Source of the DNA: Bedellia somnulentella
Taxonomy: Eukaryota; Arthropoda; Insecta; Lepidoptera; Bedelliidae
NCBI GenBank assembly: GCA_963576735.1
Contig: CAUYWD010000039.1
Span: 27,917-91,916 of the forward strand
DNA: 64,000 bases
Direction: 5' to 3'
Part shown: piece after piece, positions 5,291 through 59,958 of the stretch
Layout of the letters: every line of letters begins with the position of its first letter
Numbering within the stretch: the stretch's first letter is position 1
Made by a program: the position numbers and the translations under genes
Notes under the pieces: model-generated
The model's database searches: none
Told to the model about the DNA's origin: nothing
What the model saw: the letters and a program-made list of their open reading frames with translations, nothing else

Positions 5291-5372
5291 GTGAGTACCA
5301 TATTATAATGTCTTAATATTTAAAAATGTAGTCTAAAAGCATGATTCATGAGTTTGTATTTTGGTTTTGTGT

Positions 5373-5640
5373 TAGTGTTGCCGATCGATAGCCCACTATC
5401 GATAGCCTTTCGATAGACTATCGATACTTTATACAAAAACAATAGTATCGATAGTTATCGATAGTGTCGATACTATCGATACAATCGATCTCTCTTTTAG
5501 TGCAATACTATCGGTAAACCACAATACTATCGATAGTATCGATAGTATTGTGTTTCAATATTACATGACTATCGATAGTATCGATTCTATCGATACTATC
5601 GATAGTTTTGTTCAATCGATTGTTACTTTTTTATCAATAG
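5373..5640 (+). repeat. hAT-B left terminal repeat, TATCGATA-rich
   Basis: The sequence starts TAGTGTTGCC and then consists largely of the self-palindromic words ATCGAT/TATCGATA in close succession. Landmarks shared with the right end include ACTATCGGT plus AACCACAATAC. The dense palindromes are likely transposase-binding sites and may form hairpins. Confidence 0.9.
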
Positions 5641-5894
5641 TATTGATTGCATTTATACTAGCAGGTCGGTAGGTTGAACAGGAGTTAGTACCGACAGCTA
5701 ATTTTAGTTATTATACTAGTACTTCTCTACCTGTCGTACACAATCGGATATCTTGTTTATTACATGTGTGTAGTGGGTAGATAAAAAAAGTGTTCAATCT
5801 CATTTGGTCGTTTTATCTGGGTAATATTAGTTGTACGTGTATTCTGGTGATCGGCGTTGTATCAGATTGTGTTTTTTATAAATAAAAATATAAA

Positions 5895-8800
5895 ATGGAT
5901 TCAATTATTTCTGAGAGTGAACCAAATAAAAGGAAATCGTTGATGTGGAATTTTTTTGATAGAAAAACCGACGGTGATACTAATAAAGTTATATGTAACA
6001 TTTGCAAGGCTGAATTTAAGTACTGTTATAATACCAGCAACATGAAAGATCATTTAAGGCGCAAACATTCAGATGTTTTAATAAGTTCCCCGCCATCTTC
6101 TCACTGCAGTGAAAATCGTGTAGAAAATGTTAAAAATCAGCAAGAAACATATTCTGTAAATTCAAGTAGGAAAAAAATGCTTGATATGAAATTTGCAAGA
6201 ATGGTAGCGATTGATATGGAGCCTCTGCGTTTTTCCGAGCATGAAGGATTGAAGAAGTTTGTCAAAGCACTTGATAGTAGATATGAAATGCCTGGAAGGA
6301 CTACCCTGAGTACCAAACTCTTACCGAAATTATATGCAGAAATGAAAATTAAGTTATTTGATATACTTAAAAATGTAAATCATTTGGCTATCACCACTGA
6401 CGCATGGACATCAACAAGTAATGAGGGGATTCTGGCAGTGACTGCACATTTCATATTCAAAATGCAGCTGCAATCTGTTCTATTAGCGGCAGTAGTGTTA
6501 CAAGGTCATCACAACGCGGAAAACATAGCTACTGTGAGTAATTGTTTTGATATATTTATTAAATAGGTACATCCAACGAATTAGTAATTATATAGAAACA
6601 TAACTCCGTCAAAAAATGGTTCATCAAAAAGTAGTACAAATGGGCGGGGCGATAAAAGTAGTACTCAAAAGATCCTGCTCGCACTCGCACAGTTGGACAT
6701 TGCCGTTTCACTCGAACGTTTAACGTTCTAAATAAAGATGTACCTGAAATGAGTATATGTGATAACTGAAATCCGGCTTTGCAATTCTGTCAAGTAATTT
6801 GTTTAGTCTTGTCAGAATTGTCAATTTCATTGCTTGACTTTGGAACCATTTTTCGGTGGACTTTGTATGGGAGTTATATTTCTATATAATTACTAATTCG
6901 TTGGGTACATCCAATGATATTATATATAAGCTGAAGTAGATGCGTCTTAGAGCGCTCACCCATGGCAATCGAAAAACAAGGTAATTCCCTTGTTTGTCTT
7001 TAGTTGCTTACGCATCTGTCATTCATTACGCATGCCAAAATATGTAACTATCCCTTATTCACTTAAATGTTTACTATTGTGCTTGCTCTGTCTTTCGTGC
7101 ATACTAACCGACCACGGCAAGTTGACCAGAGATCTATTATATATAATAGTGTATTACTGTAGTAATGCCAAAAAGGAAATGCGTTTTGTACTGTTAGAAC
7201 TTGTCTATTAGTATATGTCATTGGGTACATCTATTTATTTTATTACACTATAAATGAATCGATGACAAAAATGCTTGGTTATGAGTTGCTCAGCTTAGTA
7301 GTACTATAAATATATAGATGGTTATTTATGGATTTGTTAGTATGGATTGTCTCATGTGTGCAGGGTGAACATTATTGTTTTTTTATTTATTCTTTATATG
7401 TTCTTATCCAGGGCTCCATGACCCAGTCTGTAGTATAGTCTTAGGCCATTTGTATACTCATATTTTATAAAAAAAGTCTACTGTTGAGTTTTTAATATTT
7501 CTTCTCAGCAGATACCATTTAGAAAGTACTGGTAGATTAATTTTTGACGTGTAAGAGCGTCCATTGTGACCTACTTACTGAATAAATAATTTCATTTAAA
7601 AGAAATTATAAGAAAATTTTATGATGAAATAGCATTTTTAGAAACTGACAAGACAGACGTTTTAGATTTTGTTTCAATGGGTCGTTTTCCAAAGCCGTTC
7701 CTCCAGTAGTATTCTAAACTGTCGACAGATGGCCAGGTGAATCGATAATAAGTGAAAAAAATAATTTCAGGTCATTGCGTCGGTTTTGGATGGTTGGCAA
7801 TGCCGAAATAAAGTTGTGATTATGGTAACCGACAACGCTTCAACAATGACAAAAGCGGCAGAGATATTGAAAATAAGACACTTACCATGTTTCGCCCACT
7901 CTTTAAATTTGGTAATAAAACATACTTTTCTGGACCCACAATTCATTCTTTTAAAAGACTTGGTAGATAAATGTAAGGCAATAATTTCATTTTTTAAGCA
8001 TAGTACATTAGCTACAGACCAATTAAAATCCATACAAAATGATTTGAAAAAGACTCATTTAAAACCTATTCAAAGTGTGGACACAAGGTGGAATAGTACA
8101 TACGAAATGATGAAGCGGATTGGTGAAATCAGAGATGAATTAACACTTACTATATCTAAAAATTTGAATGCGCCAAAAAATCTTACAGATGATGAATACA
8201 AATTTTTAGAGGAAGTGGTAAAAATATTACAGCCATTTCAAGAGTGTACAGAAGCTGTGTCGGGGGACACATACGCAACTATTTCTATGATAATACCTTT
8301 GATAAAAGGTTTATTGTTACGTTTCGCTCAACTGGACAAAGAAGTGTTATTGGAATCCAGCAGAATAGTCCTTGAAACAATAAAAAACCTTATTGTGGCG
8401 AGAATAAAACCTTATGAATGCCGGAATCCTTGCATAATAGCCACACTTCTCAACCCTCATTTTAAAAAACAGGGTTTTAAAACGGATACAGAAATTGAAA
8501 GAGCATTTAACGTGGTACAAAAAGAATATTCTTCTTACTTGATAACAGACAACAGAAACATATCCAAATCAGACCTTGCGGAAGCTGGGACGTCAAAAGG
8601 AGTAACAGTACGGACTAAAAAACCGAAGTTGAATTTACTTTCTTACCTTCAAGACTCACATTCCACGTCCTCTAGCTCCACTGCAGACGCAATCATTGAT
8701 ATCAAACAGTACCTTTCTAAACCAATCATAGATACAACAGAATATCCAATAGAATTTTGGTGTCATAGTCGAAACAATTTAAAATACATTGCTTTAAAAT

Positions 8801-8952
8801 ATCTGACTATCCCTGCAACCTCCGCGCCGGCTGAGAGATTGTTTTCGCAGGCCGGGCAAGTTATAGTTGATCGTCGAAATCGTTTAAGCGGAGAGCGCAT
8901 AAATGAACTGCTTTTTATCATACAAAATCACACACTGTTGGATCAGGCATAG
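5895..8952 (+). CDS. hAT-B transposase, spliced and intact (606 aa)
   Basis: Exon 1 is 5895-6533 and exon 2 is 7771-8952. The intron begins GTGAGTA and ends ATTTCAG, and joining gives 607 codons including the stop with no interruption. Domains: BED zinc finger at residues about 13-60 (CNIC then H-x4-H), the first catalytic region TTDAWTS, the split RNase-H fold continuing in exon 2 with MVTDNASTMTKAA and CFAHSLNL, a LLNPHFKKQGF block, and the C-terminal dimerisation region TIPATSAPAERLFSQAG. This enzyme would cut and paste hAT-B in the nucleus. The intron falls in the middle of the catalytic domain and has been enlarged by two MITEs. Its 5' leader follows the left GATA array, which may supply the promoter. 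Confidence 0.93.
6574..6903. mobile_element. hAT-type MITE 1 in the transposase intron
   Basis: A 330-bp element with long inverted ends starting CAACGAATTAGTAATTATAT on each side. It is flanked by GGTACATC at 6566-6573 and 6904-6911 (8 bp). There is no coding capacity. Confidence 0.88.
6912..7223. mobile_element. hAT-type MITE 2, abutting MITE 1
   Basis: A 312-bp element with shorter inverted ends (CAATGATAT... and, inverted, CAATGACAT...), flanked by the same 8-mer GGTACATC at 6904-6911 and 7224-7231. It shares the 6904-6911 copy with MITE 1. Its terminus (CAAYGA) resembles MITE 1 but the body differs. It is non-coding. The rest of the intron, 7232-7770, shows nothing recognisable. Confidence 0.8.
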
Positions 8953-9516
8953 AAATTTTTAAACGTCATACATTTTTTCTTATTTTTTTTTTGTGACGAA
9001 CATTTTATAAATCTTTAAATCCTAAGTCAAATCATTTTAACATTATCATGTTAACATGGATGATTCATCCAGGCATGTCATTAACAAAATAAAAAAAAAA
9101 TGCTGCTTAAAGTCAAAATTTATGTGAAATTAAAATTCAAAACGCACCACAATTACCTCAAAATGGTGGCGCTTTTCCCTCCATCGTGCGTGATGCCTCA
9201 TAGTTTTTACTAAGTCTACACAATTTTTTAATTCTTCAGCTATCCAGTGGTATAAATACATTTTGTGTGGAGATGATAGATGTGTACTGCAACACCAAAA
9301 TCAGTTTTTGGGTTGACAACCAGTATGGAACCAATTTCAAAGACGTATTCAAGTCAAGAAAAAAGGATAATAAATCAAAACTAATCGACAAAAAAAAAGT
9401 TTTTATCGTTTATTTGCTCAGTATTGATCAGTAATATTGTTGCGGATAAAAAGGTGGCTAATCAGTAGCGTATTAATTAACATAAAATCAAATCAAAGGG
9501 AGACAAATTATTAGTT

Positions 9517-10737
9517 TTATTGTTTTTTCACTTGATCACGATGTTTATGTTTCAATGAATCTATATAATTAAGTATGTTGATGTAAGCTTTAGAACGCAT
9601 ACACGGTGGCAAAAATTGTAGCTCGCCAATTAGAAGATTTCCAAAATAATAATTTCTTTTGTCAAGATCTGTTTCGCAAATACAATCAACACAAATGCTA
9701 TTTGTTTTATTTTCTTCCTCTTTGTCACTTGTTATTATTTCATCTTCTTGTTGCTCTATAATGTTATTACACTCTTTATCAGAATCCATAGTGTTATTAC
9801 ACTCTTTTTCTTCAATTGGGGATATATAATTGCCTTTTCTGGCCCGTGTGCTGCAATCATTTAACTCTGATTCTGATATCGATGAATCTTTTGTAGTTGT
9901 TTTGTAACGTATCTTTGAGGGCCATAGTATAGATTGAGAGTAATCGTAGTCTTCTTTATCTGATTCAATATATTTTATTTTTTCTAAAAAAAAAATTAAA
10001 TTTATCTATACTAATGTTATAAAGAGATAGATTTGACTGTTTTTTGCATTTAATAGGCTCCAAAACTACTGAACAGGTTGATGCGAAAAAAACAGAGCGA
10101 TTGTAGGGAGGAGGGGAAGGTAATAGGAGGAGAAGAGGGGAGGCGTAAGGTGAAGAGACGGGAGAGGGATGAGAGGAAGGGAGGGCGGTAAAGGGAGAGC
10201 TTCGAGGAGGATGGGAGAAGGAAAGGTGATGGGAGAAAGGAGATTGGGGGCAGTAAAAGTTAGATTTTTTTTTATATTGTTAAAAGCGCGGGCGAAACCG
10301 CGGTCAAACACTAACGCTAGACACTAAACTTTGGACGGCCACGACCACGATCAGTGGCCGCAACCACCAGATTAACTAAAGAAACCATATGAAGTAATAT
10401 TAACGTCACGCACTTGGCCGCAACGGCCAAACTGTACTACTGGTCGTGATTGTGGCTGTCTAGTGCGCTAGGTAACTAAGTCAATGTAACCGAATCGAAG
10501 GCCGAAGCGAGGGCGAATCTCTAAAACATATTTTTTTAAAACTAAAAATGTATTATGAAAACAATCAAGGTAAATATATTAAAACATACGAGACTGCGAT
10601 TCTACAGCATCTTCTGTGAAGAATGGTTGGCTGTCTGATGAATCTGAAAGTATAAATAATTACAAAATATGTATCTGTGTGTTATTTGCCTATTTTAACA
10701 AATTAGTTTAAATAAATAATTCTTTCTACTTACCCAT
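9517..10737 (-). CDS. BESS-like protein carried by hAT-B (174 aa)
   Basis: Three minus-strand exons join exactly to 175 codons including the stop: 10737-10734 (ATGG, then GTAAGT), 10643-10590 (after CTTTCAG, before GTATGT) and 9983-9517 (after TTTTAG). The protein starts MDSSDSQPFFTEDAVESQS and continues with an acidic, Ser/Lys-rich, probably disordered middle. It ends with YYFGNLLIGELQFLPPCMRS, whose spacing of aromatic and Leu residues matches the BESS motif (protein-interaction motif of insect MADF-BESS regulators). No MADF domain is present. The start codon sits 20 bp inside the right GATA terminal array, which may act as promoter. It could be a transposition cofactor, repressor or captured host gene. 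Intact frame and good splice sites support function; the BESS assignment is by eye. Confidence 0.75.
10005..10320 (+). mobile_element. Non-autonomous Helitron in the BESS gene intron
   Basis: It starts TCTATACTAATGTTATAAAG and ends after a GC-rich hairpin (GCGGGCGAAACCGCGG) with CTAG. These are the 5' TC and 3' hairpin-CTRR signatures of insect Helitrons. Between about 10100 and 10255 the plus strand is almost entirely purine. No Rep/helicase gene is present. Confidence 0.7.
10337..10457. repeat. Small imperfect inverted repeat
   Basis: GGCCACGACCACGATCAGT at 10337-10355 pairs imperfectly with ACTGGTCGTGATTGTGGCT at 10439-10457. It is probably a remnant foldback or MITE next to the Helitron, within the BESS gene intron. 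Confidence 0.5.
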
Positions 10738-10757
10738 TTTGCATATTCGCAAAAAAA

Positions 10758-11000
10758 ATCGATAGTTATGTTATATTGAAAAGCGATAGTATCGATAGTA
10801 TCGATACCATCGATAGTTAAGTAATATCGAAAAGTGATAGTATCGATGTATTGTGGTTAACCGATAGTATTCCAATAAAAGACAGATCGATAGTATCGAT
10901 ATTATCGATAATATCGATACTATCGATAGGGCTATCGATATTATGGTGTTTTTAGATTAAAACTATCGATAGTAAAACTATCGATAGTTTGGCAACACTA
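10758..11000 (-). repeat. hAT-B right terminal repeat, TATCGATA-rich
   Basis: Read from 11000 inward, it begins TAGTGTTGCC and then carries the same succession of ATCGAT palindromes and the ACTATCGGTTAACCACAATA landmark as the left end. The match is clear but not perfect. Confidence 0.9.
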
Positions 11001-11279
11001 TTTTGTGTCATGGATGTACAATAATGATTAATAAATAATCTCAAAACATACTTATTAAGTAAACAGGCATTAAATATTCCGAAATCTTTTGCGTATGTAG
11101 TGGTATACGAATCGTGAGTTGGTCAAAATGGCTGATGAATTGGTGTGATTAAGGTTACGAATTGGCGTCGAAATAATATCTCGTTTTCATTATTTTTATT
11201 TTCATATTTTGGTTTATATAATTTGTAGTTTTAATATTGTAATTTTTATAAGTATTATCTTATAGTTTTAGGAATTTAA

Positions 11280-11505
11280 AGGTTAGTCTTTGTAAGTGGT
11301 CCGCCCAGGGAAACAACTGAAAATCAGCGTTTTGCATAAAGCAAATTTCAACGCTAATATGAATCCCATTTTCATTGTTGTGACACACAAAGTTGGTGTT
11401 GTAATGTGTATTTCTTTTGTTTTTGTAATGTATGTGATAATGTTGCTATAATTTGTGTGTCTTAGTTGTGGAAATAAAAAGTTTATCTATCTATCTACAA
11501 TTTGG
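11280..11505 (+). repeat. Probable LINE or SINE 3' tail
   Basis: A non-coding stretch that ends GTGTCTTAGTTGTGGAAATA followed by a short (TATC)n run, as in insect non-LTR tails. Sequence between hAT-B (11009) and here shows no gene. The assignment rests on memory of similar tails. Confidence 0.35.
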
Positions 11506-31434: not shown

Positions 31435-32237
31435 TTATGCTCGCGACAGTCGATAGTTATAGATCCGTTGTTCATAATTAATGTTTTTAAAGGGAAACGG
31501 CTTCATAATTTTTTTATTTAATGCAAAAACACTATCGCCCAGGAATACATAGGGTGCAACTGTATCAGTGCCTGGCAGTGCAGATGGTGGTGGTAAATTC
31601 AAATCGTCAATAATCATCTTCTGATAAAATCGAGTACAATTTAAAATCGATGCATCTGCGACCGATCCATTAGTGCCTGTGTTTACGTACAGGAATTCGT
31701 AGTTTTCATTCACCACAGCAAATAGAACAATACTGAAAAATCCTTTGTAATTATAAAACAAGGAGCCACTTTCATGAGGTTTTTCTATTGCGACATGTTT
31801 GCCATCATATGATCCAACACAGTGAGGGAAATTCCACCTTTGTTCAAATTGCTCAGCTACTTCTCTCCACTCTGTTTCTGTCGTAGGCATCTGAAAGATA
31901 ATATTATTTTGAAATATAATGTATACGTATTATATTTACAGAACTCATCATCAGAAGATGAAACCGCAAGTGTTACTAACTCTAGCAGCGGGTCACGGAA
32001 GAAAAAGAAAAAGGACACTCTATTACAAAGACAACAAAATATTCTTTTATCGGCAGAAAAAGTAATGGCTGAAAAAGACGAAGAATGGGAGGTATATGGA
32101 CGATCAATTGGCTTTCATGCAAAAGATTTAAACAAACGTCAAATGATAATAGCACAATAAATTATATCAGATGAAAATTCATTAGATGGAAACACAGGAT
32201 CGTTGCCTATAATAGAAGGTCCTGCAGAACTCATGAA

Positions 32238-32646
32238 AGAGTTTTTAATTGTTAAGCGCAGAGAATAAATATGATTACGTAAATAATAACAGTTTTTAAT
32301 TGTTAAGCGTAGAGAATAAATATGATTACATAAATAATAAGAGTTTTTAATTGTTAAGCACAGAGAATAAATATGATTACGTCAATAATAAGAGTTTTTA
32401 ATTGTTAAGCGCAGAGAATAAACATGATTACATAAATAATAAGAGTTTTTAATTGATAAGCACAGAGAATAAATATGATTACGTCAATAATAAGAGTTTT
32501 TAATTGTTAAGCGCAGAGAATAAATATGATTACATAAATAATAAGAGTTTTTAATTGTTAAGCACAGAGAATAAATATGATTACGTCAATAATAAGAGTT
32601 TTTAATTGTTAAGCGCAGAGAATAAATATGATTACATAAATAATTA
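32238..32646 (+). repeat. 51-bp minisatellite, 8 copies
   Basis: GTTTTTAATTG recurs at 32241, 32292, 32343, 32394, 32445, 32496, 32547 and 32598, exactly 51 bp apart. From the third unit two variants alternate (GCACAG with ACGTCAA, and GCGCAG with ACATAAA), a 102-bp higher-order unit. The first unit overlaps the last codons and stop of the MADF-type gene (EFLIVKRRE*), so the array grew from that sequence. It lies in the intron of the opposite-strand transposase. Confidence 0.93.
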
Positions 32647-36850: not shown

Positions 36851-37503
36851 AATAGAATAAGAACTAGATGAAATTGAGTATGGTCAGTATATTTCAATGC
36901 AACACGTAAAAATCAACCAATGACAAGAGAGAAAAATCATTCCATGTTGGATATGTCAAAATTGTCAACCAATCAAATCTTCGTGCTGATTATCAGTCTG
37001 TTTTCATTTGACATTATTTTGTATTCTTTTTCAAATTAGTTTTCTAATACATTTTTCATACCTATCAAACATTCCGTTTTCGGTTTCTATAAATAAAATT
37101 AAAAACAACCTAACTAAATTTAACGTAGGTATTACCTTTTACTTCATTTTCTAAATTGTAAAATTAAATCTAATCTAAATTATCCACTCATCTATCTTTA
37201 GCGTAAGTGTCATCGGCTGGAAATGCATAAATACCTTAAGTCGAGTTTTTTTTCAAACTATGAAACTTTTTTGAAAGTTTAACTGTTTGTATATTAATTT
37301 CTACTTTTTAATTCTAAACTTGTGTTTAATTAACATTCTAGTGCTATGATAGGTTTACGTTGGATAGTCAGTTATAAAACTTCTGTTTAGTTAAAAAAAT
37401 ATATCGTTTGTATGACAGTATTCATATTTAGTTTTAACGGCTTTTATTTTAAGAAAACAAAAAAGTTCGTGTTTAGTTTAAACAATACTACTATTTTACA
37501 ATA

Positions 37504-37870
37504 ATGGCACCAGTTAGAGGGAAGCGAAGTATACTCTGGTTTTATTTTACAGAGGAAGAAAATAAAGCAAAATGTAAGTACTGTTCAGTATACGTAAGTG
37601 TATCTTTGGGCAACGTCAGCAGACATATGAAATTTAAACATCCTTGCATTTCTCTAAGCGGTGGAATGCAGTGGTCTATAGTTGCGCTAGATTTACCATC
37701 AACTAGTAGCCGAAGATCAGATTTGGTAGAAACGGCTTCAGCCACCTTAGAACCCGAACCGTCGAATGTCGGTAGCAACTTTGAGCAGCCAATAACAAAC
37801 TTTCTTAAAAACCCACCATCTCAGCGAAAAGTTGAACTGATGGACCGCCAGGCTCCAATTTCACCACGAC
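37504..37870 (+). pseudogene. hAT transposase N-terminus (BED finger), interrupted
   Basis: MAPVRGKRSILWFYFTEEEN, then CKYC and HMKFKH: a BED zinc finger in residues 8-50, followed by a Ser-rich linker and KVELMDRQ, where the related copies continue into the catalytic domain. At about 37853 the sequence changes to the left end of Harbinger 2. No continuation of this hAT was found beyond 39790. Confidence 0.78.
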
Positions 37871-38083
37871 TACAATTGTTAGCTCATATGTTGAGCTATA
37901 ATTGTCAAGCAAATTGTGACATATTACAATTTTATGAAATATTTTCTATAGAAATAATAATATATTATAATAATATATTTTGCTACAATTGTATGTATTA
38001 CAATTGTGTTGTGAAACAGTAATTATTATTTTAGTCGACATATTTCTAGAATTGTCGTAGAATCTTGACATGATATTGAGCAC

Positions 38084-39057
38084 ATGTCGGATTTGCGTGA
38101 CAATTGTATTATTTTGCGGTTGATGCACACGTATTTCGAAATGGCTCTCCATGCGAGTAGTAGTGACGCTAGTGATAGTAACAGTGATCTTGATGAATTT
38201 GCAAATGCACATATAAGAAGATTTGAAGAAAGAATTAATTTTCTTTTGATCTTACGGATTTTTCATTTTAGGAAAAAATCCTTCTTAGAAAAGTTAGTGT
38301 AGAATATTTAATAAATAGAATTGGTGCACGTATTGAACACCCAACGCCAAGAAACAAAGCTTTGACGCCTTGCCAACAAATTCATTGTACACTGCATTGG
38401 ATGGGATCGGGATCTCAATATCACGTGAGCGGAGATAATCATGGAGTGTCAAAGGCTACTATTCATCGGTGCATCAAACGAGTTACGACTGCAATTGTCA
38501 ACGAAATGTTTGGAATTGAAGTACGCTGGCCGGAGGATACCGAAGCTATCCCGCATTTATTTAGAGAATTAGCAAATATTTCAAAAATTGGTGGAGTCGT
38601 TGATGGATCATTAATACCCATTGATTCACCTCAGCGACATGAGTACATGTACGTTGACCGCAAAGGTGGGCATTCGATTAATACCATGGTTGTTTGTGGG
38701 CCAAATTTAGAGTTTTTTTACGCTAGTGCTAAATGGCCGGGATCCGTTCATGACGCAAGAGTGATGCGTAATTCAACTTTGTTTCAACAGTTGGAGAATG
38801 TTTGAAGGCCGTTCCTAAATGCGATTTTGTTAGGAGACAGTGCATATACTTTGAAAAAATGGCTCATTACACCAAACATCCCAGTTGAAATACCAATAAC
38901 CGAAGCAGTTATGCGATTTCTGCGAGCGTTTAAAAGTACACGAAGATTAGTTGAAAGCGCTTTAGGAGTATTCAAAGAAAAGTTCCCCTGTCTCAATCAT
39001 CATCATAAAAATACTAACATACGCACACAAGAAATGCTACTATTAAGAAGAAAATAA
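38084..39057 (+). pseudogene. Harbinger 2 transposase
   Basis: N-terminal part MSDLRDN... to HFRKK (38084-38270), frameshift at an A-run near 38270, then EKILLRKVSVEYLINRIG, the HTH-like region with CIKRVTTAIVNEM, and catalytic blocks GGVVDGSLIPI and PGSVHDARVMRNS. A TGA at 38803 interrupts ENV*RPFLN, where Trp is likely, before LLGDSAYTLKKWL and the C-terminal RRLVESALGVFKEKF. The frame stops at 39057, somewhat short of typical HARBI1-like length. The enzyme would cut the element at short target sites; two lesions inactivate it. Confidence 0.85.
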
Positions 39058-52383: not shown

Positions 52384-54247
52384 GCGACTAAACGAAAATT
52401 TAGTACTTTATGGGGTCATTTTGAAGAAGTGGTGCCCAACAAAAAAGCAAAATGCGGATATTCTTCTCGCATACTTTCAATATCATCGAGCTCAATAGGA
52501 ACTTTAAGCAGGCATATGAAGTCTAATCATCCCACGATTTAAATTAATTCTAGCAGGCATGATGCTACTAGGCCACAAGTCAGCAACATAGAAACAGTGA
52601 CAGCCGTAACAGAGCCGCTCTGGTGGAAGCGGGACCGTCACAAGAAATTGCATCCGAGGTGGAGATGACGATCCAATTATCAAGACCACAAACAGGTCCG
52701 TCGATGGTCAACTATCTAGTTAGTAAAAAAACACTGCCAATAAGTCGCATGCAACAATTAGACGAGCAATTAGTGCGAATGATTGCTAAAGGTTATCACG
52801 CATTAAGAATGGTTGACGAGGTAGAGTTTAGAAAGTTTGTAGAAATGCTCAACCCCGGATACACCCTACCTACTCGTAAAACCCTTTAAGAAAGTCTGCT
52901 GCCTAAGGTGTATAACAAGGTCTTAGAACAAGTAAAGAAGGAAATACAGAAAGCGGTAGCTATATGTATAACCACGGATGCCTGGACGTCACTGACCAAT
53001 GATGGCTACATTGCAGTAACTGCCCATTTTATTGATACAGAGAGGAATAAATTTTGTACAGTTATGATAGGGTGCATCGAATTCCAAGAAAGACACACCA
53101 GTGTTAATTTTAAAGATTTCTTGGAGACAAAGTTTGTGGAGTGGCAAATAACACACAAAGTTAATGTGATAGTGAGTGACAACTCCGCAAATGTCTTGAG
53201 CGCTGTCAGACTCGGAGGGTGGCGCTCGCTATCATGTTATGCCCACACGCTAAATTTAGTTGTGCAATCTAGCATACAAGCCATTAGCCAGAATTTGGGA
53301 AGAGTAAAGTCGATTGTGGAATACTTTCACAGAAGTATTCCAGCAAAAAGAAACTAGCCGAAATACAGGAGCAAATGCACATGAATGCATTAAAATTAAA
53401 ACAGGACGTGTCTACTCGCTGGGATTCCACATATGATATGCTGGTGAGACTGTATAAAATAAAAGATGCTGTCATTGCATCACTAGCAATATTAAGACCC
53501 GACCTTGGCCTACCACAAGACGACTGGGCCATTATGAACAAGAGTATAGATGTATTAAAAATTTTCTTTGAAATTACTGTAGAGGTTAGCGATGAAAACT
53601 ATGTCTTAGGGTCAAAATACATAGTTTATTGCAGAATAATAAATAGAGCCCTCACCAAATTCTCGAGCGAGAACCTATCAGAAATTGACCACCTACATAG
53701 TTCCCTCATAACAGAGATGCAGAAAAGATTTGGGTACGTCGAAAAATCCCAACTTCTTTGCGAAGCCACTATTCTGGATCCCAGATTTAAGAAAAATGGA
53801 TTTTCCGATATAAGCAATTCTGAGATAGTAGCATCGGCGTTAAAACTCCGTATCGGAACGGAACGTTTTGAAACCGCTGAAGCGATTCCGCCACAACCAG
53901 AATTTGTTCAGCCGAGTCAAGAGCCAAAGGATTGTATTTGGGATGATTTTGATGCAGAAGTGGCGGTTCTTGTACCGCGTAATCCAACAGCAGCTGGAAT
54001 CGTAGAGTTCGACAAATATATTGAAGAACCAATTATAAAAATATCAGAAAATCCGTTGCTATGGAAGAACGAACCCAAAAGTGTGTACCCGAGACTATAC
54101 AAATATATGTTGAAACGGCTGAACAAAACAGCAACATCCGTACCGTGTCAAAGAGTGTTTTCGAAGGCTGGTTTAACATCAAACGAAAGACAAACTCGTC
54201 TTAAAACTAAAAAAATATCCCAATTGTTATTTATAAGTTGTGAATAG
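52384..54247 (+). pseudogene. hAT transposase C (ZBED type), broken
   Basis: N-terminal BED-like finger with TLWGHFEEV, then KCGYSS where C-x2-C is expected, and HMKSNH (52384-52540). A TAA in that frame is followed by the middle part in another frame from about 52623: GPSMVNYLVSKKTLP, MLNPGYTLPTRKTL, a TAA at 52887-52889, then TTDAWTSLTNDGYIAVTAHF and VSDNSANVLSAV with CYAHTLNLVV. A frameshift near 53350 precedes KLKQDVSTRWDSTYDM, and the frame runs to the C-terminal block TATSVPCQRVFSKAGL at 54130-54180. At least four lesions. The first finger Cys is also lost. Confidence 0.85.
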
Positions 54248-57639: not shown

Positions 57640-57790
57640 TCTATCTCATGTAATGTATTTATATTAACATTACATGAAGTGATTCATTACAAAACAGCAC
57701 GTGTGATAGTAGCATCACATTTAATGTTTAATGTCATGATGTGATGTCATATCACTCGAAATGAAATGTAATGCCATGACATTACTTCAA
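57640..57790. repeat. Clustered CATTAC/GTAATG and TGATGTCA words
   Basis: Many short inverted words (TGTAATG, CATTACATG, TGATGTGATGTCATATCAC) occur close together. A similar cluster is at 39880-40005 (GTAATGCATTACACGTAATA and ATCACATTTCATTACATTAC). They may be subterminal repeats of one DNA-transposon family. Confidence 0.4.
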
Positions 57791-57808
57791 AGTGTACTGT
57801 TTCGCGCA

Positions 57809-58180
57809 TGTCTAATTCAAGAGCCAGAACCAGAACTCACAAAACATAAAGAAAAATCGTCACTGTGGGACGATTATGACAGGGACAGCACAAGAGTTAA
57901 ACGACCAATAAGTAATGTAGCAGCTGGCATCATCGAATTGCAAAAATATATTAAAGACGACAATATTGATAGGCAAGCAGATCCATTACAATGGTGGCAT
58001 AGCCGAAAAGACATATACCCACACCTGTATGATTATATGCTTAAAAGGCTATGCATACAGGCCAACTCGGTACCCTGTGAAAGAGTGTTCTCAAATGCTG
58101 GTCTCATTTTAAATCAGCGTAGGACATTGTTGTCGCATGAAAAGGTCACACAACTTCTTTTTCTTCATGGAAATATGTAA
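57809..58180 (+). pseudogene. hAT transposase C-terminal fragment D
   Basis: It retains LIQEPEPELTKHKEKSSLWD, an acidic stretch, and the dimerisation block ADPLQWWHSRKDIYPHLYDY, then NSVPCERVFSNAGLILNQRR up to a stop at 58180. The catalytic part is absent. It is a different family member from hAT C, whose C-terminus is already complete at 54247. Confidence 0.8.
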
Positions 58181-59140
58181 ATATATAGGCTAAAATTAAT
58201 AAATTTAATTATTGTCAATATATTTGAGTTTTAATACACCATTTATGTATGCATGGAAATCCTAAACCCATTAAAGTAAGGGGAATTGAATATCTATATT
58301 TAAATGTAGCAATCATTAAAATGTAGCATTGATCTTAGTTTATTCTAGTCTGGTAGATTTTCTCATACAACTACGAGTTTTAGGGTTACGAACTGGTTAT
58401 ACATTTGCTTAGACATTTGCGTAGACATTATTTATTACATAAAAAAGTATGAAATAAATAATTGACAATAAAGCTGTTAAATCCAATGAATAGTTCAATC
58501 AACTTCACGTAAACGAATAAACTAGTTAAGATCGCTCTCAAAACTGACCGACCGGGTACAAGTCTACAGCGAACGAAATTAAATCGCACTGACTTCAAAG
58601 CTTAATTGCGAAGCCGAGTTGTGGCGCGCATATCGCGCAGCCGAGCTTAGCATCGTATTGTAGCGTCTCGCTCTCTCAACGGTGCAACGGCAGTCGTGCG
58701 CTTCTCCGCGGTCGCGTGACTCGCGTGAGAGGGCGAGACGCTGCATAGCTGCATATTTCGCTTTTATAGATTAGCTAGCTAGCTAGCGCTCCGCGTCCCA
58801 CACCGGAAAGAAATTCAGCTATAGCGATTTGGCAACGGCAACGGTTGACCACTTTGCTGCTGCCTGGTTCCCGTGTAAAGTTACAATTGTGTTTGTTTTT
58901 CGCGTTCGATAAATAAATGCTTGTAAATATAAATACATAACTTAAGTATTAGTTAGCTGTTGGTGTTGTTTTTGTAATTCAACTGTCATTTAGTGTTTAT
59001 AAAGATTGAGTGTAAAATTGTAAATAAATTGTGTTTGTGAAAAAGGTATTTTCTGACGGAATCTTTATTGGTAGGACAATTTCGTATTTTAAGTGTTTTT
59101 CTAAATGCTAAATAGAGATAAAATGATTATTTCACCTACT
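58181..59140. other. No gene; GC-rich patch at 58600-58800
   Basis: AT-rich flanks surround about 200 bp of GC-rich, CpG-rich sequence with short inverted words (GAGACGCTGC and its mirror GCGTCTCGCTC) and a TATA-like CTTTTATAGATTA at about 58760. This may be the leader or promoter side of hAT fragment F. Confidence 0.4.
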
Positions 59141-59958
59141 CACTTCATCACGTGATTAAACGTGTTCATACTTATACTCACGCGTTGAATCCTAATTATG
59201 AAATTCCTGATCGGAAAACTTTGTCAACCAACCTTATGACAAAGGAATATCTAAACAGGCTTGAACAATTGAAGTCCTACGTTGAAGTTGAAACTAACGC
59301 AACGTCGGTGTGCATCACGGTAGATTGTTGGACATCACATCTCGCATCATGGATAGTTACATGGCAAAAACCGCGCATTTTATTGCAAGCCTTAAGAGGA
59401 ACAATAAAAATTTAATGCAGTTCTTCCAATTTTACCGAACGAGGAATGGCAATATTTATGGTGGAAATGAGCGCGGAAAATTATTTGGTGGCAAGCAATG
59501 CAACTGTTTTCACCTCTAGTCTCACGGTCATTTGCCATTACTTTTGCCTAATTCCAGATTAATGTCTACCAGTAATGGCACTGGCCAAAAAGCTCGAAAG
59601 CGGAATGATCAAAAGACTTGGCAATAAAGAAAAAAAATTAAAAAATGGTTTGAGCGCACTACTGGATTCGCGATTCAAATTAATAGCGTTCAAACAAGAG
59701 GAAAACAAAAATTACATAATCATTTCTTTACTAAAGATAATGGTTCAGTTAATTATTCTCACATCACAGTCACATCATCCGCAAAACTCCGAACCGATAC
59801 CATCCACGTCGGCGTCAAATGCACCAGCTCCACTAGAAGTGAATACCGAACTAATGCCTAGCTTTAGTCTGTGGAGTGACTTCGATTTGGAAGTAAACGT
59901 TGAGGATACTCCAAAAACAAATCAAGAAAAGGCTTTGGAAAGTTGGAGAGATATTTAA
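59140..59958 (+). pseudogene. hAT transposase fragment F
   Basis: HALNPNYEIPDRKTLSTNLM and CITVDCWTS (59180-59335) are the fingers-to-catalytic start of a ZBED-type transposase. The frame then shifts (KTAHFIASL at about 59370), most of the core is deleted, and KNGLSALLDSRFKLIAFKQE to SFSLWSDFDLEVN follows at 59575-59958, just short of the dimerisation block. Confidence 0.75.

Follow-up and report, generated by a model that had tools for sequence, protein, structure and literature searches.

A transposon that carries a second gene raises the question of what that gene is for, and such an element lies in a 64,000-nucleotide stretch of the lepidopteran Bedellia somnulentella (assembly GCA_963576735.1, contig CAUYWD010000039.1, positions 27,917 to 91,916 of the forward strand), referred to here in its full length as the window. 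To our knowledge, the cut-and-paste hAT and piggyBac transposons of animals are usually described as one-gene elements. The element at positions 5373-11000 of the window (5628 bp) is a hAT transposon with a spliced second gene, termed gene 2, opposite its transposase gene, and a homologue of gene 2 is carried by a piggyBac-type element in the same genome. The finding is thus larger than a first-pass annotation of this DNA had stated, since a second transposon superfamily carries the homologue.

The perfect 8-bp target-site duplication (TSD) and the matching ends reported by that annotation are both present, with TTTTGTGT at either flank (5365-5372 and 11001-11008) and perfect 10-bp terminal inverted repeats (TIRs) at 5373-5382 (plus strand) and 10991-11000 (minus strand), giving the ends TAGTGTTGCC...GGCAACACTA. 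Inside the ends lie two subterminal arrays of the motif TATCGATA, with ten copies on the left (5380-5620) and nine on the right (10755-10990); the motif is absent from the element interior and occurs once elsewhere in the window. The right array is the inverted homologue of the left, shortened in the window copy on the side of gene 2. In a sibling copy from the same genome (L024), the inverted repeat between the two sides extends over ~300 bp, with 252 of 338 columns identical, such that the same sequence, in opposite orientations, precedes both genes. The two genes converge, as had been noted, with the transposase on the plus strand and gene 2 on the minus strand, and the polyadenylation-like signals of both fall within the 564 bp that separate them.

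The transposase gene is intact and spliced, as first read, with exon 1 (5895-6533, plus strand) encoding a BED zinc finger and exon 2 (7771-8952, plus strand) encoding the hAT dimerisation region and the stop; joined at GT/AG sites they yield 606 amino acids. Pfam matches were obtained for zf-BED (E 4.9e-11) and Dimer_Tnp_hAT (E 1.2e-11), and a profile of the transposase and 12 relatives, compared with known structures, matched the Hermes transposase (E about 1e-38) and the BED finger of ZBED1 (3e-6). The 8-bp TSD, short TIRs, hAT dimerisation region, and Hermes-like transposase body place the element in the hAT superfamily. One relative (P0014) has extra residues that read through exactly at the splice site of the window transposase, which looks like a retained intron. 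The intron itself contains, at 6567-7230, three GTACAT motifs around two adjoining blocks, the first with 35-bp inverted arms (6573-6607 and 6870-6904) and the second with shorter arms recognised by eye, and the blocks look like two nested miniature inverted-repeat transposable elements. A protein of the spider Araneus ventricosus (P0012) shares 49% identity across 92% of the transposase, a match that may point to horizontal transfer.

Gene 2 was reproduced as the annotation had described it, a three-exon gene of 175 codons including the stop (174 amino acids). The coding part of exon 1 is ATGG alone (10737-10734, minus strand; donor GTAAGT), followed by exon 2 (10643-10590), with the motif SSDSQPFFTED, and exon 3 (9983-9517), which ends in the stop. 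A version of 176 amino acids from an upstream ATG was dropped because its donor is GG rather than GT; it had served as the query of the first protein search and as row 1 of the first alignment, where the two extra residues are expected to be immaterial. The exon-3 frame is rarely matched by chance (when 9001-10755 was shuffled base by base, frames of at least 162 codons arose in 3 of 1000 trials), and beyond this test the reality of gene 2 is settled by the existence of homologues. As read from its sequence, the protein comprises a short N-terminal motif, a basic cluster (KIK in the window copy), an acidic linker that is of low confidence in the structure model and probably disordered, and a C-terminal CxxC and two-helix domain. 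The C-terminal domain was modelled as two helices with a mean pLDDT of 74.5 over 60 residues, and comparison of the predicted fold with the PDB gave no match. A match of the first-alignment profile to capsid proteins in the PDB (E 0.03) disappeared with a larger alignment and is attributed to chance.

In the 549-Mb genome assembly, for which all copy counts are lower bounds, exon 3 of gene 2 was found at 11 places (the window and ten siblings, L019-L028) with 98-100% identity and no internal stops. In seven of these copies both TIRs are present and the 8-bp TSD is exact, every TSD being different. The gene-2 frame is kept in 10 of the 11, with splicing giving 174 amino acids in nine and the alignment showing that L024 is unchanged. 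The transposase has fared differently: it is complete (604-606 amino acids) in the window copy, L023, L024, and L027, frame-broken in L025, interrupted by stops in L026, and internally deleted in L019 (3008 bp; 139 codons left) and L020 (2198 bp; none left), both of which retain gene 2. The first part of the transposase is absent from the stretches fetched for L021, L022, L026, and L028. A search with the left end returned 16 places, or 15 copies if two complementary pieces at C27:10.51 Mb belong to a single copy; 10 of the 15 carry gene 2, and a copy on C28 with no left-end match brings the number with gene 2 to 11. A copy with neither left end nor gene 2 would escape these searches. The first-pass annotation had held that copies lacking the minus-strand gene would count against its reading. 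Five such copies were seen, all of them deleted or truncated: one at C27:5664080, from which the gene-2 side has been deleted, together with four short copies, of which three (1076, 831, and 825 bp) keep both ends within exact duplications and the last shows no right end in the fetched stretch. Three of the five have a common right deletion breakpoint and retain neither gene.

The copies differ little from one another. Differences from the majority base amount to 47 of 24663 noncoding positions outside the arrays, 26 of 15378 in the transposase, and 7 of 5741 in gene 2. With insertions uncounted, gene 2 shows two synonymous and five nonsynonymous changes and one deleted base, and the transposase six synonymous and 19 nonsynonymous changes, with 29 bases deleted across three copies. 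The distance of copies from the majority base (~0.2%, noncoding) and the differing TSDs establish past mobility of the family, with no implication of present activity. The copy in the window is not the best example of this family, having a private deletion of ~130 bp upstream of gene 2 relative to all ten siblings. The siblings keep a leader between the array and the gene-2 ATG (in L021, only the part next to the ATG), and the start codon touches the array in the window copy because this stretch was lost there. The annotated abutment of exon 1 on a right terminal GATA array therefore stands for the window copy alone, where the repeated motif is TATCGATA.

The second carrier emerged from seven further places in the genome at 32-35% identity to gene 2 and an eighth, decayed, that was found with their own query. 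The opposite-strand open reading frame of this carrier encodes a piggyBac-type transposase (PF13843, DDE_Tnp_1_7, E 1.7e-79 in a profile run on L029), and a whole element of 3445-3449 bp with TTAACCC...GGGTTAA ends is present in three of the seven fetched loci (L029, 4060-7504; L030, 4065-7513, in reverse orientation; L032, 4141-7585). From its transposase domain and TTAA ends, the carrier is a piggyBac-type element. Its gene-2 homologue encodes 103 amino acids, is likewise convergent with the transposase, and adjoins it in 8 of 8 copies at 93% or higher transposase identity, the pieces of split copies being pooled. Both versions of the gene begin with a split start codon, ATGG|GTGAGT in the piggyBac-type element and ATGG|GTAAGT in the hAT. 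A profile-profile comparison (hhalign) of the hAT-type set with the piggyBac set gave a probability of 98.4 (E 4e-15), with CxxC, D-RN, PC-RS-AY, and IL in common; the hAT-type set consists of the window gene and 18 protein relatives, and the hAT carrier is established for the family of the window gene only. Two unrelated transposon families thus contain homologous genes that share an unusual intron position.

The 18 protein relatives, found in searches that covered proteins between 0.55 and 1.75 times as long as the query, include sequences from Chilo suppressalis, Helicoverpa zea (five contigs), Colias eurytheme, Euphydryas editha (two proteins), and Trichoplusia ni. Across all 18, between 31 and 44 residues of the 50-residue C-terminal domain are identical to gene 2 of the window; the N-terminal part, in the 10 relatives long enough for comparison, shows much lower similarity (17-37 identical residues in 65-115 aligned). 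Constraint on gene 2 is supported by this conservation of the domain in the protein comparison. A basic cluster was counted by pattern in 10 of the 18 relatives and is present in the sibling consensus. In three relatives (P0005, P0009, and P0063), hydrophobic residues precede a KRK-type cluster much as in an unspliced reading of the second intron of the window gene, which suggests that intron 2 is conserved. The remainder of the window contains no convincing relative of gene 2; a weak profile match outside the element (11286-11486, minus strand; 13 bits over 29 columns) is ascribed to chance.

The label 'BESS-like', under which gene 2 was first described, did not survive comparison. Pfam scans of gene 2 and its relatives, including 11 members scanned together, returned no BESS, and none of the 74 places listed for PF02944 in the genome coincides with gene 2. 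Alignment of the gene-2 profile by hhalign with 20 BESS domains drawn from those 74 places gave a probability of 1.3% (E 0.041), and a BESS identity is rejected on profile and profile-profile grounds. BESS is described as a domain of about 40 amino acids with two predicted helices, capable of homodimerising (PMC10573801). The C-terminal domain of gene 2 is also predicted as two helices and by analogy may act like BESS, as a dimerising adaptor, although it differs from MADF-BESS proteins in that no sequence relation was detected and in having a conserved CxxC and PC-RS-AY and no MADF. Two true BESS-domain frames (C19:12021413 and C19:12024587) adjoin the left-truncated hAT copy L021, outside the element remnant.

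Several roles for gene 2 can be weighed against this distribution. Capture of a host gene that now travels as passive cargo would account for the introns of gene 2 and, at face value, for the occurrence of its domain within a THAP-bearing gene model of T. ni (P0065). Yet a THAP exon and a P0065-like tail, ~3.5-7 kb apart with no gene 2 between them, form a multi-copy gene in the Bedellia genome (C9:4735324/4738848, C27:2043349/2047032, and C21:10026183/10030002, with further copies on C65, C50, C430, and C25), which by its sequence is probably a P-like element. The recurrence of the flanking parts without gene 2 indicates that P0065 is probably a fused gene model, and for the same reason the T. 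ni fusion was not upheld as a third carrier superfamily. The two protein searches recovered, within their length range, small Pfam-less proteins and one THAP model, with no MADF-bearing or other host parent, and neither the conservation of the C-terminal domain over several Lepidoptera nor a split start codon common to two transposon families is what cargo would lead one to expect; host capture is regarded as very improbable. Of the earlier interpretation, what stands is that the second gene is part of the element, given 10 of 11 copies in frame and relatives in five named Lepidoptera, and what falls is the BESS label, with recent host capture disfavoured. Self-repression is also improbable, though less so. 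Under that explanation gene 2 would regulate copy number, with non-autonomous copies damping the element, and the two copies that keep gene 2 after losing most or all of the transposase (L019 and L020) are of the kind it calls for. Each transposase-loss deletion was seen once, however, and the repeated deletion type is the one with neither gene, so that, in these small numbers, nothing suggests an advantage of copies with gene 2 alone.

A direct transposase cofactor deserves more weight, though we still consider it rather unlikely. The gene-2 product would then help with import into the nucleus, pairing of the ends, or recruitment to the TATCGATA arrays, comparable to the MADF/Myb-like partner of PIF/Harbinger, whose second gene is described as moving the transposase into the nucleus (PMC9710019). 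The convergent partner genes with common inverted flanks and the basic cluster of gene 2 agree with such a role. The homologues, however, accompany hAT and piggyBac transposases that differ in family and in their ends, the hAT transposase has basic stretches of its own as read from the sequence, and five copies of the element lack gene 2, although mobilisation in trans or loss of the gene after insertion could account for these. A cofactor tailored to one transposase would hardly suit both, and a protein acting on host chromatin, transcription, or silencing fits the two carriers; it is the difference in superfamily of the transposases and termini that favours a host-facing task.

The reading we prefer, with confidence that falls slightly short of even, is that gene 2 belongs to a presumably autonomous hAT family as a true second gene and not as decayed cargo, with a product that is nuclear and host-facing and not a transposase-specific partner. 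The basic cluster in the relatives suggests nuclear entry and would take the protein into the nucleus, where its targets would probably be those of the host: it could counteract silencing of the element, for instance, or serve as an adaptor of chromatin or transcription. In intact copies gene 2 starts beside the right subterminal region, which repeats in inverted form the one preceding the transposase, and the two genes are probably under common regulation through these mirrored regions. A wider proposal, advanced only tentatively, is that a distinct family of accessory genes passes between hAT and piggyBac elements in Lepidoptera as a module with a split start codon, benefiting its carriers against the host, for instance by relief from silencing.

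A number of observations weigh against the preferred reading. The window copy is without the gene-2 leader and has lost one basic residue of the cluster, with isoleucine where the siblings have arginine (KIK versus KRK), gene 2 is frame-shifted by a 1-nt deletion in L028, and 5 of the 16 copies seen are without the gene. So few changes separate the copies that they are too young to reveal selection or a ratio of nonsynonymous to synonymous substitution rates (dN/dS). Among four decayed related families (one piggyBac at 51-54% identity and three hATs at 42-55%), none has gene 2 in the 1.7-2.2 kb beside the transposase remains, from which it follows that gene 2 is not universal, was lost early, or lies outside the stretches examined. 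No gene-2 locus was found in viral contigs or prokaryote genome contigs, neither collection consisting of insect genomes. Lastly, the identification of gene 2 as a gene draws on sequence evidence throughout, and its putative host-facing role is reached by inference.

The surrounding window appears to be a transposon-dense region, with frames resembling gypsy, Pao/BEL, LINE, and mariner elements read from translations and further, mostly broken hAT-type transposase frames at 585-2532, 52572-54247, 57740-58180, and 59122-59955. At 37477-38805 a BED-finger-like frame directly precedes a Harbinger-type frame on the same strand (both named from their translations), and the pair may be a two-gene Harbinger whose partner gene encodes a BED protein. 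A tandem array of eight 51-bp units with 92% matches lies at 32237-32644.

Compared with known members of the hAT superfamily (Hermes, Ac, and ZBED-type), the element has the expected 8-bp TSD, BED finger, and hAT dimerisation region and differs in its second gene and long TATCGATA subterminal inverted repeats. Other hATs have subterminal arrays of binding sites, which the TATCGATA repeats resemble. DREF and BEAF-32 have BED fingers, as does the transposase. At the level of motif and domain, the likeness extends to the arrays: TATCGATA is the DRE motif, the 8-bp site of DREF (PMC11043500). Among the matches listed in a literature search, including passages of PMC2528002, PMC3259105, and PMC9659126, no hAT with a conserved second gene was described; second genes of piggyBac elements were outside that search. 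PIF/Harbinger elements are likewise DNA transposons with a second small gene, whose product, a MADF or Myb/SANT protein, is described as carrying the transposase into the nucleus (PMC9710019, PMC4482050). The Bedellia elements differ in having hAT and piggyBac transposases and in that gene 2 has no MADF, Myb, or BESS match. MuDR is alike in layout, with convergent genes and promoters within long inverted ends. Of its two genes, mudrA and mudrB, the latter is apparently needed for integration, and in the Mutator-type Hiun element of Arabidopsis (vanB and vanC) one gene is described as anti-silencing (PMC6446971). MuDR and Hiun resemble the present case in having a second gene besides the transposase, but they belong to another superfamily and their second proteins are unrelated to gene 2 as far as Pfam shows. 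Homologous accessory genes in hAT and piggyBac elements, mirrored in arrangement and alike in gene structure, would mean that helper genes are exchanged between transposon superfamilies. A helper able to serve two unrelated transposases likely touches the host, which would provide a handle on how insect genomes restrain transposons. Two-gene DNA transposons are already known from these systems; the surprising part is that the homologues of gene 2 span two superfamilies.

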